From: a virus
Virus record (IMG/VR): IMGVR_UViG_3300032323_002994
Span: 1 to 30,714 of that record
Direction: 5' to 3' (one strand)
Length of the DNA: 30,714 nucleotides
Shown here: in pieces, positions 7,522-30,126 of the stretch
Layout of the letters: every line of letters starts with the position of its first letter
How positions within the stretch are numbered: position 1 is the first letter of the stretch
The notes under the pieces: generated by a model
The model's database searches: none
What the model was told of the DNA's origin: nothing
The model's input: only the letters and a program-made list of their open reading frames with translations
Made by a program: the position numbers and the translations under genes

Positions 7522-9732
7522 TTAAAACGTACCTTGTGCGATAACTTCATTGAAGTTAACTCCGGTTTGTGTTGCAATGAAATCACAGAGAATAAATTCT
7601 GCTGTTCTTACTGGTTGAATATAAACTGATACATTCATTTGATTAGCATCAATGATAGATGGTGGGTTATTTCTTGAGTCACATACAATCTGATAAGCAA
7701 ATAAACCATCACTATTAAGTGCCTTGTCAAATATTGGTTTTAATGTATTAACAAGACGGGTTTGTGTTGTGTAGTTATTAGGCTCAAACACATAGTATTG
7801 TAATGCAGTCTTAGTTGATTTTTCAAGTGTTAAGAAAAGTCTTCTTACATTGATTCTATCGAAAGCCGAAGGCTTAGTGTAGAGTGTTTTTTGACCAAAT
7901 ATTACAATACCTTCACCTTGGAATGATGCGATTGGATTTACATTTATTCTATAAAGAAGATCTCTTTGTTTTTGTGTCGGACTTACTCCGATATCAATTA
8001 CATTTGTAAGAGTACCACGATTGAATCCTGCAGGTGCTGCCCAAGGAGCTACTCTTTGTGAGGTTGTTGCTATAATTGATGCAGCCCAACCAGAGGAAGG
8101 AACCCAAACATTACTGTTTGATGCCGTATCGTTCACAAGCAACCAGTTACCGTATGTTGCAGCATAGCTAGAAACATTAGAAGCAAACTGATTATGTACA
8201 GGCCAGTATATATCTTGTGAGAAGTTATAACCATTTACAGTAGTTGCTTTAGTGTTTTTTCCTTGTACAAAAATGTTACGAATAGGATCTGCGATGAATA
8301 AGTGATCTTTTCTTGTTTGATCAGCAAATGTTATGAATTGTGTAGCAATTGCTTGATAAGCATTGTAGAGAGATCCACCTACAATATTTCCTGTTTGTTC
8401 TTTAAGTGTGGAGATGTCAACGTTATATGTTTCATCGAAGATATAAACACCATTTCCATCTCCATAATTAGGATCTGCTTCTCTCATTACTGCACTAGAC
8501 CAAATTGTTCCAAGACCTGCTTCTACAACAACATCAAGTGGTTGATCTAAGTTATCAATGTTGTTGAGAATTCTTTGAAGTTTTGCTGGAACATTTCCAA
8601 CATTTCCAGCAATTTGATTTGTTGTGGAGATGTAAACACCTTCAGAATAAAGGTTTTTAGCTTCATCTGAGACTCTTACAGTCTTTGCAGGTGTTCCGTC
8701 AGAGTTAACCCATGTTCCTGTGTCTGCGATGTATGGGTTAGTTACAACTTTAATATTTGATGAATTGCGGTTTGCTACATTATCAAGATTAAAGGTTACA
8801 GGTGCTCCACCAACAGGATTGTTCTGGGTTCTCTTGGCATAAAGTGATCCTGTATAGGATTCGCTGACCAAGGCATCCAGAACAACAGTATCCTGTGCAT
8901 ATATGGATGTACGAATCTTGAACACCATGAGTGTCAAGCAATCATTATAAGAAGAAGATCCAAAATTAAATGCTGTTGGGAACTGCTCTATTGTTTGTGA
9001 GATACTTTCTCCACCAGCAGAGAAACTTTGTGTTAAGCTGAAGTCGAGTCTGGATGAAGGAACATTAGTAAATGTCTGATATGATCCGTCAATTATTGTG
9101 TTCGATGCCTTGATGCCAGTGATTGAATTAAAATCAGATGCAGGATTTGCATTTGAGTTATCACAGAGACCTACATAATAACCTTCATAGATTTCACTGA
9201 TAGCTGTTTTAGCAGAATCTAAAACAACGATACCACCCTTTGTGGATATATCAGCAAATGACTCAATATCACCTGCAGTATATCCATTACCCCAAACAAT
9301 ATTGTTTTCGAGTATTTGTGTATATTCATCGTCTGTGAGAAGAACCGAAACAGGAGGTAATACCTTGAAGCTTGTGGAATCTTCATATGTTGCGGCATCC
9401 GAAGAAAGCGGATAAACAAGTGCGGAATATTGATTTGAAAATCCTTCACCAGCACCAGAACCATAAGGCATTCTTGTTACTAAAACATTAGCAGGGGATG
9501 TTGTTAAAAGCTGACGAGCAGAATGATAAAGATAACGTTCTGCTGCATTAGTTGGAGAACCGAATGTTCCTTCAAAATCTGAAATGCTTGTTACATTTAT
9601 TAATTCATTTGTCGGTCCTTGTGAAGCGAATCCTGTTAAGAAAACATTTGTTGCTCCAGAAACCTGAGAAATCTGCGAAAGATCTACTTCATTGATTTGT
9701 ACGCCGGGTGATGCTATTGTTAGTGTTGACAT
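7522..9732 (-). CDS. 18: Contractile tail sheath protein (gp18-like)
   Basis: A 736-aa sheath protein, slightly longer than T4 gp18 (659 aa). The start TIASPGVQINEVDLSQ followed by VFLTGFASQGPTNE is the classic sheath N-terminus (PGV...E.D, then G.a..Gp). The C-terminal part contains GEGIVIFGQKTL and the RINVRRLFLTLEKS...LQYYVFEPN series, the conserved sheath domain that includes the handshake arm region. The protein ends FIATQTGVNFNEVIAQGTF. It identifies the phage as a contractile-tail virus. The insertion relative to T4 is probably in the surface-exposed middle domains. The ATG at 9732 has a TAAATA box 12 nt upstream. Confidence 0.95.
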   Translation of the reverse strand: MSTLTIASPGVQINEVDLSQISQVSGATNVFLTGFASQGPTNELINVTSISDFEGTFGSPTNAAERYLYHSARQLLTTSPANVLVTRMPYGSGAGEGFSNQYSALVYPLSSDAATYEDSTSFKVLPPVSVLLTDDEYTQILENNIVWGNGYTAGDIESFADISTKGGIVVLDSAKTAISEIYEGYYVGLCDNSNANPASDFNSITGIKASNTIIDGSYQTFTNVPSSRLDFSLTQSFSAGGESISQTIEQFPTAFNFGSSSYNDCLTLMVFKIRTSIYAQDTVVLDALVSESYTGSLYAKRTQNNPVGGAPVTFNLDNVANRNSSNIKVVTNPYIADTGTWVNSDGTPAKTVRVSDEAKNLYSEGVYISTTNQIAGNVGNVPAKLQRILNNIDNLDQPLDVVVEAGLGTIWSSAVMREADPNYGDGNGVYIFDETYNVDISTLKEQTGNIVGGSLYNAYQAIATQFITFADQTRKDHLFIADPIRNIFVQGKNTKATTVNGYNFSQDIYWPVHNQFASNVSSYAATYGNWLLVNDTASNSNVWVPSSGWAASIIATTSQRVAPWAAPAGFNRGTLTNVIDIGVSPTQKQRDLLYRINVNPIASFQGEGIVIFGQKTLYTKPSAFDRINVRRLFLTLEKSTKTALQYYVFEPNNYTTQTRLVNTLKPIFDKALNSDGLFAYQIVCDSRNNPPSIIDANQMNVSVYIQPVRTAEFILCDFIATQTGVNFNEVIAQGTF

Positions 9733-20435: not shown

Positions 20436-23228
20436 ATGAGTAACAACACGCAGAATTCCGACAAATATTATTGGCTCAACAAAGATTCCCGAAAGTTCTT
20501 GGAGGGTGGTTACCTTGAAGAAGGAACCACACCAGAACAAAGAGTTAGACAAATCGCAGACAATGCGGAAAAGATTTTAGGAATCAAAGGTTTTGCCGAC
20601 AAATTTGAAGACTATGTCTCCAGAGGTTACTACTCGTTGAGTACGCCCGTTTGGACAAACTTTGGAAACAAGAGAGGCTATCCGGTTTCCTGTTTCGGTT
20701 CATATTGTGAAGATCGCATGGAAAGCATTCTCAACAAAGTTGCTGAAGTTGGAACCATGTCAAAAATGGGCGGAGGCACTTCTGGTTATTTTGGTGATCT
20801 TCGTGAGAGAGGTGCAAAGATTTCCACTGGTGGTGAGTCTAGTGGTCCTGTGCATTTCATGGAACTTTTCAGCACCGTTGCTGATGTGATTTCTCAAGGA
20901 TCTGCTCGTAGAGGATCATTTGCTGCATATCTTCCGGTTGAACATCCCGACATTGAAGAGTTCTTGCAGATTCGTTCCATCGGTCATCCTATTCAAAACA
21001 TGAGCATCGGCGTTACTATTACCGATCAGTGGATGCAGGAAATGACAGAGGGAGACAAGGCAAAGAGAAAGATTTGGGCAGCAATCATCAAGAAGAGATT
21101 TGAAACTGGTTATCCCTATATTCAGTTCACAGATACCGTAAACAACAATGCTCCTAAAGTCTACAAAGACAAGGGATTAAAGATCAACAACTCAAATCTT
21201 TGCGTAACAGGAGATCAAAGAGTTCCTTCTAATTTTGGTATTTTAACAGCAAAAGAACTTTGTGAAATCGGAGAAGAATTGAGCTTATTTGATAATAATA
21301 AAATTGTTAAATCTTCTCCGATGAAGATTATAGAAAAAGATGCAGATGTATTTAAAATTACATTGGAAAATGGTATGACACATACCATTACATCCTACCA
21401 TAAAGTTTCTGTTCTTGATAAAAGAACACAAAAACCAAACGAACCCCAAGTAATAATCACAAAGGATGTCGCCTGTGAAGATTTAAAAATTGGTGATTCT
21501 GTTGCAATTCAAACTAATAAAGGAATATTTGGTAATAGAAATATGCCTAAAGAAGCATTTCTTCTTGGCTTATATCAAGCAGATGGAACCCAACATAAAG
21601 ATTTGATTATGATTGATTTGTGGGAAAATGATTTTGATCTTTTAGATGAAGTTCAATCATATCATGATTATGTTTGTGAAACATATAAAACACAAATTTC
21701 AAATCATAATAGAAGAATTTATGATAAACCTACATTTAATGATTGTGTGGTACAAGAAGGATCTGACGCAAAAAAAAGATTAACTGGAAGAGCTTTGAAA
21801 AAATCACTTAATTTTGAAAAGGGATATGTACCAGAATGGATTTGGTCAGCAGATGAAGAAACACAATGGCAATATATCAGAGGTCTTTATTATGCAGATG
21901 GTACAGTATTTAAATCAAATTCACACGGTGATCCTTTACAAATTGCACTAGCATCCATCAATAAAGAATTTCTGAAAGAAATTCAATTAATTCTAGCTAA
22001 TCTTGGAATGCAATCTTCTATTAGAGTTATTAGAAAAGCTGGTGAAACTTTACTACCAGACGGTAAAGGTGGTAACAAATATTATGATGTTAAAGACTGT
22101 TACAGACTTATTATTAGTAATAAAAACGATGCACTTGTTTTTGAGAAAAACACAAGATTCTTAAGCAGAAAAAGCATCACAATAGATGATAGAGAATATA
22201 GAGACAACACAAAGAAATTTTACAAGATTTCTTCTATCGAATATGTTGGTAAAGAGGATGTATATTGCTGCACTGTTGAATCCGATGAACATCATTGGAT
22301 TTGTAATGGAATAGTCACGCACAATTGTTCCGAAATTGAACTTTCAAATGGCGTTGATGAATCATTTGTTTGTGTTCTTTCTTCAATTAATCTTCTTCAT
22401 TGGGATGAGATTAAGGAAACTGATGCAGTTGAGACAATGGTTTATTTCCTTGATGCAGTAAATGAAGAATTTGTAAATAAGACCGAAGGTGTAAAATTTA
22501 TGGAAGCACCTCATAAGTTTGCAAAAAATCAAAGAGCATTGGGTCTTGGTGTTCTTGGATGGCATTCCTACCTTCAGTCCAATATGATTGGATTTGAATC
22601 CATGCAAGCAAAGATGCTTAATAATTCCATCTTCAAAACTATCCGTGAAAGAGCCGACAAAGCTACCGAAGAACTTGCGAATATTTTAGGTGAACCCGAA
22701 CTCCTCAAGGGATATGGTCGTAGAAATGTAACAACTCTTGCGGTTGCTCCAACAACATCTTCGTCATTCATTCTCGGTCAGGTAAGTCAGTCGATTGAAC
22801 CACTCAATAGCAACTACTTTGTCAATAAGCTTGCAAAGGGAAACTTCACCTACAAGAATCCTTATCTCAAGAAACTTCTCAAAGAGAAGGGAAAACACGA
22901 CGAAGAAACTTGGAAGAGTATTTTAGTAAAGGGTGGAAGTGTTCAGCATTTGGATTTCCTTACTCAGGACGAGAAAGATGTTTTCAAAACTTTCGGAGAA
23001 CTTTCACAAAAGGAGATTGTTATTCAAGCATCTGCCAGACAAAAATATATTGATCAATCTCAGTCTTTGAATATCATGGTTCCTCCATCAACTCCTGCAA
23101 AGGATGTTAGCACATTGCTTATTGAAGGTTGGAAGATGGGTGTAAAGACTTTCTACTATCAGAGATCCAGTTCACCTAGCCAAGAACTTTCTAGGAATAT
23201 CTTATCGTGCAAATCCTGCGAGGCATAA
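20436..23228 (+). CDS. nrdA: Ribonucleotide reductase class I, alpha subunit, with intein
   Basis: Catalytic subunit reducing ribonucleoside diphosphates. The precursor is 930 aa; removal of the 375-aa intein (256-630) leaves 555 aa, the short form without an N-terminal ATP cone. Exteins read NLC+SEIE across the splice site, the N-x-C-x-E motif holding the thiyl-radical cysteine (E. coli C439). The redox-pair cysteines are PVSCFG (residue 86) and FVCVLSS; the C-terminal relay is SCKSCEA. Other RNR marks are GGTSGYFGDLR, RRGSFAAYLP, NVTTLAVAPTTSSS and the radical-transfer YYQRSS. It resembles the short class I enzyme of Bacteroidetes as I remember it. The next ORF begins inside its last 22 bases. 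Confidence 0.96.
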   Translation: MSNNTQNSDKYYWLNKDSRKFLEGGYLEEGTTPEQRVRQIADNAEKILGIKGFADKFEDYVSRGYYSLSTPVWTNFGNKRGYPVSCFGSYCEDRMESILNKVAEVGTMSKMGGGTSGYFGDLRERGAKISTGGESSGPVHFMELFSTVADVISQGSARRGSFAAYLPVEHPDIEEFLQIRSIGHPIQNMSIGVTITDQWMQEMTEGDKAKRKIWAAIIKKRFETGYPYIQFTDTVNNNAPKVYKDKGLKINNSNLCVTGDQRVPSNFGILTAKELCEIGEELSLFDNNKIVKSSPMKIIEKDADVFKITLENGMTHTITSYHKVSVLDKRTQKPNEPQVIITKDVACEDLKIGDSVAIQTNKGIFGNRNMPKEAFLLGLYQADGTQHKDLIMIDLWENDFDLLDEVQSYHDYVCETYKTQISNHNRRIYDKPTFNDCVVQEGSDAKKRLTGRALKKSLNFEKGYVPEWIWSADEETQWQYIRGLYYADGTVFKSNSHGDPLQIALASINKEFLKEIQLILANLGMQSSIRVIRKAGETLLPDGKGGNKYYDVKDCYRLIISNKNDALVFEKNTRFLSRKSITIDDREYRDNTKKFYKISSIEYVGKEDVYCCTVESDEHHWICNGIVTHNCSEIELSNGVDESFVCVLSSINLLHWDEIKETDAVETMVYFLDAVNEEFVNKTEGVKFMEAPHKFAKNQRALGLGVLGWHSYLQSNMIGFESMQAKMLNNSIFKTIRERADKATEELANILGEPELLKGYGRRNVTTLAVAPTTSSSFILGQVSQSIEPLNSNYFVNKLAKGNFTYKNPYLKKLLKEKGKHDEETWKSILVKGGSVQHLDFLTQDEKDVFKTFGELSQKEIVIQASARQKYIDQSQSLNIMVPPSTPAKDVSTLLIEGWKMGVKTFYYQRSSSPSQELSRNILSCKSCEA
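21201..22325 (+). other. Intein with LAGLIDADG endonuclease in nrdA
   Basis: A 375-residue protein insertion. The N-terminal splice block is CVTGDQRV with Cys1; block B is THTITSYHKV (the T..xH motif); the C-terminal block is HHWICNGIVTHN followed by Cys +1 of the extein. Between them are two dodecapeptide motifs of a LAGLIDADG homing endonuclease, LLGLYQADG and IRGLYYADG. Both aspartates are kept, so splicing and DNA-cutting functions look intact. It is inserted directly before the catalytic radical cysteine, which doubles as the +1 splicing nucleophile. Its codon usage is more AT-rich than the exteins. Confidence 0.95.
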
Positions 23229-28439: not shown

Positions 28440-28513
28440 TGGTAGGAGATGACGGTAACGCCCCGCCGAATTCTGCGTGTAAAGCAGATGTTTTACTTTT
28501 AAACTAATCTCCC
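28440..28513 (-). tRNA. tRNA-Val (UAC) with altered elbow
   Basis: Cloverleaf of 74 nt including CCA. Acceptor GGGAGAT/ATCTCCT, D-stem GTTT/AAAC, anticodon stem TCTGC/GCAGA with loop TTTACAC (anticodon TAC), T-stem GGCGG/CCGTC. The T-loop is GGCGTTA rather than TTCxAxx, so the usual T54, T55 and A58 are G, G and T. The D-loop AAAAGTA has A at position 18 instead of G. The variable/T-stem bases resemble E. coli tRNA-Val, so this is a real but modified gene rather than chance. It sits alone between the early promoter and the 70-aa gene. Confidence 0.85.
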
Positions 28514-28573
28514 AAAATTTTATATATTAATATATTAATTTAAAAACCTGCTATTGTCAAATTTATTTATAGT

Positions 28574-28786
28574 TTATATCGAACCACTGTCAACTTTTTT
28601 TATATCAAAAGTTGCGTTTGAATAGATTTTAATCTGATCGGTTCTGAAATGTTTTATTATACCACCCTCTTCTAAAACAACTGTAAAAATATCATTTTCA
28701 AATGTTCCAGAATTAACAACATAAATCGCATATCCATTACCTAATGGAGTTACTACTGGCATAGGATTTTTGAATTCGTGTATCAT
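28574..28786 (-). CDS. Unknown 70-aa protein
   Basis: Unrecognised small protein, mainly beta: PVVTPLGNGYAIYVVNSGTFENDIFTVVL followed by GGIIKHFRTDQIKI, resembling a small barrel. It starts 1 nt after the stop of the HAD phosphatase gene, so it is cotranslated with it. It ends 60 nt before the tRNA-Val gene. Confidence 0.7.
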   Translation of the reverse strand: MIHEFKNPMPVVTPLGNGYAIYVVNSGTFENDIFTVVLEEGGIIKHFRTDQIKIYSNATFDIKKVDSGSI

Positions 28787-28787
28787 T

Positions 28788-29345
28788 TTACAAGTCTTTT
28801 ATTTTCTTTAGTTGTTCCGTAAGGCTATCTACAAGATCATGAAATTGCCCCTGATCTGCTTCAAACTTAATTCCAATACCACCAGCAGCATTCCATGCGT
28901 TAATGTTATCTTCTAGATCATCAATTAAAATGTTGGGCTTTCCATCTGTTGTTGCAAATTTGGATTTATCAAAAGTATAATGAGCAGTAATAGGTCTATC
29001 CTCTTTGTCTATGTTTTTAAGAATCCATTGATTTTTTCCATATATGGATTGTTTTGTATAATTCTTCAAAGGCATGGAACAAATTCTATAGCTGCCAAAT
29101 AATCCAATAATAAATTTAATCAATTTCTCTCCTTCTGGATATTTTGGAAGTTTTGAAAAATATTCTGCTACATTTGTGTTTGCAAAATATTCATTAAATT
29201 CTCTATTGGTTACTTGGAAAAAACTCTGCTTCATAAGAGCCATTGTTATTGGGGATTTAAAATCACACAACACGCCATCCATATCCAAGTAAACTTTTGG
29301 TTTATATGTGTTTTTTATTTCTTCGTGAAATTTCTTAAAATTCAT
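28788..29345 (-). CDS. HAD-family 5'(3')-deoxyribonucleotidase-like phosphatase
   Basis: A 185-aa HAD phosphatase. Motif I is YLDMDGVLCDF (19-29) with nucleophile D21 and general acid D23. Motif II is weak: SMPLKN near residue 94 (Ser). A lysine for motif III may be in FDKSKF. Motif IV is ILIDDLEDNINAWNAAGG near residue 140, with two acidic residues. The arrangement matches the short NT5C type found in phages and bacteria, which dephosphorylates deoxynucleoside monophosphates. Together with nrdAB and dCMP deaminase it fits nucleotide pool management. Both a TAAATA box and a sigma70-type promoter precede it. Confidence 0.8.
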   Translation of the reverse strand: MNFKKFHEEIKNTYKPKVYLDMDGVLCDFKSPITMALMKQSFFQVTNREFNEYFANTNVAEYFSKLPKYPEGEKLIKFIIGLFGSYRICSMPLKNYTKQSIYGKNQWILKNIDKEDRPITAHYTFDKSKFATTDGKPNILIDDLEDNINAWNAAGGIGIKFEADQGQFHDLVDSLTEQLKKIKDL

Positions 29346-29355
29346 TTGTACTATA

Positions 29356-29361
29356 TATTTA
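29356..29361 (-). promoter_or_regulatory. TAAATA box before the HAD phosphatase gene
   Basis: CGGTAAATATATAG on the minus strand; TAAATA ends 10 nt before the ATG at 29345, downstream of a sigma70-type promoter. Confidence 0.45.
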
Positions 29362-29367
29362 CCGAAT

Positions 29368-29395
29368 ATTATAGCACACCTTTCCGATATGTAAA
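29368..29395 (-). promoter_or_regulatory. Sigma70-type extended -10 promoter
   Basis: On the minus strand TTTACA, 16-bp spacer, TATAAT preceded by TGC. It begins one base past the 3' end of tRNA-Gln, so it separates the tRNA block from the HAD gene and may give early expression next to the late-type box. Confidence 0.62.
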
Positions 29396-29396
29396 G

Positions 29397-29470
29397 TGGC
29401 TACCCCTCGTGGACTCGAACCACGACAAAGAGAGTCAAAGTCTCTTGTGCTACCATTACACCAAAGGGTA
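29397..29470 (-). tRNA. tRNA-Gln (UUG)
   Basis: Canonical 74-nt cloverleaf with encoded CCA. Acceptor TACCCTT/AGGGGTA, D-stem GTGT/GCAC with loop AATGGTA (G18 G19), anticodon stem AGAGA/TCTCT with loop CTTTGAC (TTG), T-stem CGTGG/CCACG with loop TTCGAGT. Discriminator G. Confidence 0.95.
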
Positions 29471-29530
29471 TTATTTTTTGTAAAGGTATTTTACAAAAGA
29501 ATATTTACTTTGTCAAATGACAAAAAAAAA

Positions 29531-29585
29531 TAGTGCTTGTAATTGGATTTGAATCCAATATTGTAAGTTCAATTCCACCAAAAGC
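29531..29585 (-). other. tRNA-like remnant lacking an anticodon arm
   Basis: Between tRNA-Asn and tRNA-Gln. An acceptor-like pair GCTTTTG/TACAAGC (one mismatch) encloses a T-arm-like hairpin ATTGG...CCAAT with loop ATTCAAAT, then discriminator A and CTA where CCA would be. At about 52 nt it is too short to hold an anticodon arm. It is likely a decayed or deleted tRNA gene, but chance similarity is possible. Confidence 0.35.
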
Positions 29586-29658
29586 TCCACTGGCTAGACT
29601 CGAACTAGCATGATGAACAAATTAACAGTTTGCTGGCTTACCATTAGCCCACAGTGGA
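29585..29658 (-). tRNA. tRNA-Asn (GUU)
   Basis: Cloverleaf: acceptor TCCACTG/CAGTGGA, D-stem GGCT/AGCC with loop AATGGTA, anticodon stem GCAAA/TTTGT with loop CTGTTAA (GTT), T-stem GCTAG/CTAGC with loop TTCGAGT. Discriminator G. CCA is not encoded (CTT follows), unlike the other five. The variable loop TCATCAT has 7 nt, longer than usual. Confidence 0.93.
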
Positions 29659-29666
29659 ATTTAAAT

Positions 29667-29741
29667 TGGTCGAGCACCCCGGTTACGCTCCGGGTATATC
29701 TTCGTCCCAAACGAAGCGGATTACTATCTTCCTCGTGCTCG
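29667..29741 (-). tRNA. tRNA-Pro (UGG) with altered elbow
   Basis: 75 nt with encoded CCA. Acceptor CGAGCAC/GTGCTCG with discriminator A, anticodon stem CTTCG/CGAAG with loop TTTGGGA (TGG, G37 as expected for Pro), T-stem CCCGG/CCGGG. The T-loop is AGCGTAA, lacking T54, T55 and A58, and sharing G-C-G-T-x-A with tRNA-Val. The D-loop GATAGTA has A18. Position 8 is G instead of T and position 14 is G instead of A. The perfect stems argue it is functional. Confidence 0.85.
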
Positions 29742-29746
29742 ATTGT

Positions 29747-29929
29747 TTATTTATTTATTTTGTAACCATAATTTATCAACACTTCTTTACAAAAGCAAAC
29801 AAATTCTTCAGGTGTCATTGTATTTTTTGCTTCATTTGCTGTTTTTGTAGTTAATCCTATATTTTCTAAACTTTTATCACCATTTAGTCTAATAAGTTTT
29901 ACAGACTCGCAACTAGCCGCTCGGTTAAT
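29747..29929 (-). pseudogene. Coding-like fragment without a standard start
   Basis: The 200 bases between tRNA-Pro and tRNA-Ser contain an open frame of 60 codons that looks coding: it begins INRAASCESVKLIRLNG and ends TPEEFVCFCKEVLINYGYK before TAA. No ATG, GTG or TTG occurs before the frame runs into tRNA-Ser; only ATT at 29929 (or an internal ATG giving 23 aa) is available. The first third also resembles the 5' half of a tRNA-Tyr: CCGAGCGGCTA like a class II D-arm and CTGTAAA as an anticodon loop. Either a gene truncated by a tRNA insertion, an ATT-started gene, or a fused fragment. Confidence 0.35.
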
Positions 29930-29939
29930 GGCTCTTAAA

Positions 29940-30031
29940 TGGAAGCAGGTGTGGGATTTGAACCCACGGAACCGATAAAGGTTCTCCGCATTTCAAGTGC
30001 GGTGCAATAAACCAGACTCTACCAACCTGCC
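29940..30031 (-). tRNA. tRNA-Ser (UGA)
   Basis: Class II, 92 nt with CCA. Acceptor GGCAGGT/ACCTGCT, anticodon stem CCGCA/TGCGG with loop CTTGAAA (TGA), variable arm GAACC/GGTTC, T-stem GTGGG/CCCAC with canonical loop TTCAAAT; the D-loop contains GG. Discriminator is T, unusual for Ser. Confidence 0.92.
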
Positions 30032-30037
30032 ATGTTT

Positions 30038-30126
30038 TGGAAGGAGCGGTGGGATTCAAACCCACGGAACCTTTTGGGTTCTTCCGATTAGTAATCGGAC
30101 ACTTTAAGTCGCTCAGTCACGCTCCC
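30038..30126 (-). tRNA. tRNA-Ser (ACU) with A34 and altered elbow
   Basis: Class II, 89 nt with CCA. Acceptor GGGAGCG/CGCTCCT, discriminator T, anticodon stem TCCGA/TCGGA with loop TTACTAA (anticodon ACT), variable arm GAACC/GGTTC, T-stem GTGGG/CCCAC. The T-loop TTTGAAT has T56 and the D-loop GAGCGACTTAA has G18 A19, so the 19-56 pair is A-U rather than G-C. Variable arm and T-stem are almost the same as in the adjacent tRNA-Ser(UGA), indicating duplication. A34 in a Ser AGN tRNA is rare in bacteria. Confidence 0.88.

Follow-up and report, generated by a model that had tools for sequence, protein, structure and literature searches.

The window, i.e. the whole stretch of DNA analysed here, is a fragment of 30.7 kb from IMG/VR and derives from a T4-like myovirus, the tail sheath protein of which shows ~30-38% identity to those of T4-type phages and cyanophages; sheath, GP88, HNH and dCMP deaminase Pfam domains are present. 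A large ribonucleotide reductase-like ORF (20436-23228) contains an internal intein-like stretch, as judged from the translation only. Between positions 28440 and 30126, six intact tRNA genes lie on the minus strand, all of which form a cloverleaf with 7/4/5/5 stems and U33, with NCCA encoded 3' of each (6/6).

In the canonical bacterial elbow, the D-loop and T-loop are held together by G18-Psi55 and G19-C56, with T54-A58 and U8-A14 as further tertiary contacts. An ordinary elbow was found in tRNA-Gln(UUG) (29397-29470) and tRNA-Asn(GUU) (29584-29658), both with D-loop AATGGTA and T-loop TTCGAGT, and in tRNA-Ser(UGA) (29940-30031), with G18G19 and T-loop TTCAAAT. The canonical G18 G19 is replaced by A18 G19 in tRNA-Val(UAC) and tRNA-Pro(UGG) and by G18 A19 in tRNA-Ser(ACU), and both Val and Pro depart from the canonical combination of U54 U55 C56 and A58. 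The tRNA-Val gene (28440-28513 with CCA; tRNA 28443-28513) has D-loop AAAAGTA (A18 at 28497, G19 at 28496) and T-loop GGCGTTA (28456-28462; G55 at 28461, C56 at 28460), with G54 and U58. The tRNA-Pro gene (29667-29741 with CCA; tRNA 29670-29741) has D-loop GATAGTA (A18 at 29725) and T-loop AGCGTAA (29683-29689; G55 at 29688), as well as G8 (29734) and G14 (29728). Because the D-loops of both tRNAs are 7 nt long, positions 18 and 19 are unambiguous. In tRNA-Ser(ACU) (30038-30126), the D-loop AGCGACTTA carries A19 (30109) and the T-loop TTTGAAT (30054-30060) carries U56 (30058). The loop sequences quoted in the original prediction are thus all present, on the minus strand.

The D-stem of tRNA-Pro has one mismatch (13-22). 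Its anticodon arm (CUUCG UUUGGGA CGAAG), C1-G72 and A73 mark it as a proline tRNA rather than a chance hairpin. ARAGORN reported four of the six tRNAs in the window, missing Val and Pro, whereas the Rfam tRNA model reported five, including Val (50.2 bits), and missed Pro. Near-identical homologues of tRNA-Val, with AGCGTTA/AAAAGTA, were found in two other loci (L113 and L133), and the D-arm family of tRNA-Pro has 16 more homologues. Homologues of tRNA-Ser(ACU) have either A19/U56 (L089) or G19/C56 (L091, L093 and L096). A G1-U72 pair occurs in three of the window's tRNAs (28444-28513, 29944-30031 and 30042-30126) and in 79 of 127 phage Val(UAC) tRNAs.

Survey of phage tRNAs

Approximately 1,550 distinct tRNAs were gathered from phage DNA with a custom scanner that is blind to loop sequence: only stems, loop lengths and U33 are demanded, and positions 18, 19 and 54-60 are not scored. 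At an equal threshold, reversed DNA gave 0 hits, compared to 1,386 in the real sequence. Sources of the DNA surveyed were relatives of the sheath protein, matches of a T-loop pattern, matches of a Val pattern that left out positions 18, 54, 55 and 58, phage isolates and larger contigs. In separate D-arm searches, the D-arm of one family was fixed, while position 18 (A or G) and the entire T-loop were left free. Relatives of the GP88-like protein were too distant and too short to be informative, the exact pattern of the Pro anticodon arm plus T-loop had no match outside the window, and BLAST of phage records with a Val tRNA of the class with A18 and G55 (hereafter, the A18/G55 class) gave no match.

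Coupled changes in positions 18 and 55

Positions 18 and 55 change jointly, across many isotypes and phages, in otherwise intact genes. Among 527 distinct phage tRNAs with 7-nt D-loops, the 18/55 combinations were G/U in 448, A/G in 73, G/C in 3, G/G in 2 and A/U in 1. Thus, A18 and G55 imply each other, with three exceptions (one A/U and two G/G) among 524 tRNAs. In the same set, the 19/56 combinations were G/C in 507 and A/U in 13, such that 520 of the 527 are complementary; no link was found in the cross-controls, 18 with 56 and 19 with 55. The information on position 18 contained in position 55 amounts to 0.54 bits, against at most 0.08 bits for any other D-loop position. The association of 18 with 55 is formally extreme (p = 5 × 10−86, Fisher's test), although, the sequences being related, this value is not to be read as a true probability. 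We addressed kinship by analysing switches within homologous pairs, the spread over isotypes with parsimony, and the D-arm searches in which position 18 and the T-loop were free. Among homologous pairs (at least 70% identity outside the elbow) that differ, both sites were switched in 37 of 37; both elbow states were found in 19 isotypes, and parsimony gave ~112 state changes, on tRNA trees that are poorly resolved. The D-arm searches for Phe (in a sample, at least 29 A/G, at least 64 G/U and at least one A/U), Val (4 A/G, 8 G/U) and Pro (6 A/G, 11 G/U) together yielded at least 39 A18/G55, at least 83 G18/U55 and a single A18/U55 among the matches listed, 122 of 123 fitting the rule.

These observations bear out the claim of the original prediction that the elbow changes are paired, and the A19-U56 pair postulated for tRNA-Ser(ACU) recurs in other isotypes (the 13 cases above). 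The prediction would have been refuted by homologues combining the same T-loops with G18, but the test did not refute it: the Val T-loop pattern matched 34 sites in the viral collection, 10 of which were discarded as non-tRNA structures, and A18 was present in all 24 valid tRNAs found by T-loop alone. The switch is visible between related Streptomyces phages, at the level of gene sequence: tRNA-Phe of Moab and BRock has AGATGGAT with a TTCGAT(T/A) loop, whereas tRNA-Phe of Faust, TunaTartare and Bmoc has AGATAGAT with a TGCG(TT/AT)A loop.

Distribution and detection of the A18/G55 class

Among 963 tRNAs from the set assembled irrespective of positions 18, 54, 55 and 58, 18 tRNAs, in 17 of 99 loci, belonged to the class, which is therefore uncommon but widespread. 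It spans 19 amino acid identities, includes initiator-like Met tRNAs with a C1-A72 mismatch, and is present in cultured Streptomyces, Acinetobacter and Erwinia phages. Conversion is nearly complete in two phage contigs, with ~35 of 37 tRNAs in G030 and ~19 of 24 in G036. Ser tRNAs account for none of 149 members of the class, compared to 80 of 1,388 tRNAs outside it, and both Ser genes of the window retain U55; long variable arms are likewise rare in the class (6 of 150 vs. 202 of 1,388). In 84,980 cellular genomes, where the control covered Val with RGCRTWA loops only, the Val T-loop pattern gave 54 matches, 53 of which were discarded as non-tRNA structures. The single valid tRNA is from a Verrucomicrobiales MAG, on a contig of 41 kb with low coverage, the other tRNAs of which mostly belong to the A18/G55 class; this contig is probably phage DNA.

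Several features of the two converted contigs are worth recording. Amid the converted tRNAs of G030 there is a tRNA with a CUA (amber) anticodon and an ordinary elbow (L328:4854-4924), and the same phage (L327-L330) encodes a T4 Rnl1-type RNA ligase, a PARP-like protein and a macro domain protein. Four tRNAs of G036 (L353:4436, 5421, 6769 and 7391) have other D-loop/T-loop combinations, e.g. G18 C19 with C55 G56 in Lys and GG with CC in Phe, as if the contact were of the Watson-Crick type. Among the sampled protein genes of two highly converted phages, no dedicated elbow-modifying enzyme was found.

When applied to 168 survey loci, ARAGORN found 1,327 of 1,337 U55/C56 tRNAs but only 61 of 149 G55 tRNAs (26 of 97 where position 54 is not U), i.e. 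it misses ~60% of the A18/G55 class and less than 1% of U55 tRNAs, so that ARAGORN-based phage tRNA counts are too low. In Faust, the tRNAs of which are otherwise ordinary, an A18/G55 tRNA-Phe (L264:13887-13957) is unannotated and an ORF is annotated across the site; in Bmoc, the corresponding tRNA-Phe (L324, ~8001-8070) is unannotated as well. The A18/G55 class of phage tRNAs is widespread and mostly unannotated.

Other tertiary contacts

Positions 54-58 were mostly T-A across the survey, with A-T in 97 tRNAs, G-G in 28, C-A in 17 and A-A in 17; where this pair is not T-A, position 60 is usually A. The 8-14 contact was U-A in 1,357 tRNAs, A-U in 32 and G-G in 27. In ordinary tRNA, U8-A14 and U54-A58 have equal geometry, and A-U and G-G turn up as substitutes at both contacts. 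The G8-G14 combination of tRNA-Pro, which the original prediction counted among the paired elbow changes, is real, but it is a trait of a phage Pro tRNA family that is retained with either G18/U55 or A18/G55 and is, therefore, separate from the elbow switch. Altogether, the earlier interpretation is partly supported.

Proposed structure of the elbow

G18-Psi55 is regarded as a nearly universal tRNA contact: in ordinary tRNA, G18 reaches into the T-loop, where its pair with Psi55 is capped by G19-C56. Judging from the sequences, Val and Pro are probably functional phage tRNAs in which this inner contact has been replaced, as a unit, by A18-G55. The outer 19-56 pair stays complementary, as G-C or, rarely, A-U. 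G55-C56-R57 and an intercalated A18 probably form a composite turn of the GNRA type, in which G is paired with A and by which the L-shape would be kept. A comparable arrangement is found in UGNRA lonepair triloops of unmodified RNAs: in riboswitch T-loops of this type, the loop G commonly meets an adenine from elsewhere to make a composite GNRA turn, and in the TPP riboswitch the ligand occupies the place of the outside A (PMC2258182). The elements of this motif, G at loop position 2, a purine at position 4 and an outside adenine, correspond to G55, G57 and A18 in Val and Pro, and R57 is present in 150 of 150 G55 tRNAs. Here, however, the motif lies within a tRNA, and the closing U-A pair (54-58) is retained in only 51 of 150 members of the class, with G54-U58 in Val and A54-U58 in Pro; the analogy is thus exact only for class members with UGCRA.

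Compared to the canonical bacterial elbow, these tRNAs share the cloverleaf, the 7-nt T-loop, C56, R57, a complementary 19-56 pair and encoded CCA but have A18-G55 in place of G18-Psi55 and, at 54-58, G-U (Val) or A-U (Pro), with no targets for TruB, TrmA or TrmH. Specifically, A18/G55 tRNAs have no U55 for TruB and no G18 for TrmH, and so cannot carry Psi55 or Gm18; Val and Pro also lack U54 and, hence, the TrmA target and m5U54, along with A58. The predicted loss of the T54 and Psi55 modification targets in these two tRNAs accordingly follows from the sequence. Given that TruB and TrmA double as tRNA chaperones (PMC10969862), folding of A18/G55 tRNAs would proceed unaided by them or with a different kind of assistance. 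Replacement of T54-A58 is also known from eukaryotic tRNA-Ala, tRNA-iMet and tRNA-Ile, which have A54-A58 or C54-A58 but, unlike the phage tRNAs, keep G18, G19 and Psi55; these exceptions at 54-58 aside, G18G19, U54, Psi55 and C56 are reported to be conserved in the eukaryotic tRNAs analysed (PMC7566577, PMC9023262). The open-licence reviews consulted on the tRNA elbow and T-loop make no mention of G55 or A18, and the elbow, T-loop and D-loop are not discussed in the open-licence phage tRNA studies consulted, although such absence is no proof of novelty.

Possible causes of the switch

The failure of ARAGORN to report two of the window's genes, and of Rfam to report one, could suggest decaying pseudo-tRNAs. 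This reading is extremely improbable: the stems are intact, U33, purine 37 and encoded CCA are present, homologues are conserved and the two-site association is nearly perfect. On average, the class resembles ordinary tRNAs rather than degraded ones (0.76 mean stem mismatches in the G55 class vs. 0.59 in U55 tRNAs; CCA encoded in 89% vs. 87%), in agreement with the original view that these genes are not decaying. On the strength of the covariation, both decay and chance were rejected. A non-translational role appears very unlikely as well. The precedent is the cell-wall tRNA-Gly of S. aureus, in which position 18 is also altered, G18G19 being replaced by UU or CU, and which binds EF-Tu weakly (PMC4052509). 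Val and Pro, however, have A18 G19 and their own anticodons, not UU or CU with glycine identity; across the class, G19-C56 is kept, 18 changes along with 55, and the 19 identities include Met tRNAs with the initiator C1-A72 mismatch.

The most likely reason for the switch, so far as the gene sequences can indicate, would be an elbow that is stable without host modifications, which may be useful for tRNAs made in the burst of infection; against such modification independence counts the fact that some ordinary phage tRNAs share a cluster with converted ones. Compensated neutral drift is possible but somewhat improbable. Under this explanation, tRNAs in brief service and under weak selection would tolerate a disruptive change in 18 or 55 that is later compensated, with no benefit; paired variation at the 8-14 and 54-58 contacts is consistent with such drift, and so is the scatter of only 18 converted tRNAs among 963, over 17 of 99 loci, in the set chosen blind to 18, 54, 55 and 58. 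Yet, there are hardly any intermediates (3 of 524), and drift acting on each tRNA independently would not be expected to convert nearly the whole set in several phages. Such near-complete conversion is what pressure on all tRNAs would give, as in the scenario, unlikely on present evidence, in which the altered elbow shields phage tRNAs from nucleases or toxins, of the host or of competitors, that read the ordinary elbow or its modifications. The RNA ligase of the T4 Rnl1 type encoded by the fully converted phage G030 is compatible with such escape, but most phages, that of the window included, convert only some of their tRNAs, and the outer 19-56 pair, the face on which elbow-binding partners stack, is retained. 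To our knowledge, no nuclease reads 18/55. The contacts of Cas12a3, for one, are with the backbone of the T-arm and with the CCA tail (PMC12851939). In favour of escape, phage tRNAs do evade tRNA-targeting defences, so far by changes in the anticodon loop or by replacement (PMC10264068, PMC11555353). The tRNase-resistant phage tRNAs likewise depart from the host consensus, but their change is in the anticodon loop, with no mention of the T-loop, D-loop or elbow in that study (PMC10264068). Modification independence, nuclease escape and compensated drift are all candidate reasons, ranked only loosely.

Implications

A bolder reading, to which we give somewhat less than even odds, is that phages have evolved a second, modification-free elbow and that some of them have transferred almost all of their tRNAs to it; host ribosomes would accept such tRNAs, whereas host elbow-modifying enzymes and any elbow-reading defences would fail to see them. 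A replacement of G18-Psi55 that arose in nature, and repeatedly, provides a clean test of the roles of the elbow and its modifications, and changing just two positions, to A18 and G55, offers a way to an elbow that cannot be modified in model tRNAs. With a standard finder missing most A18/G55 genes, our observations also suggest that the tRNA repertoires of phages have been under-counted.
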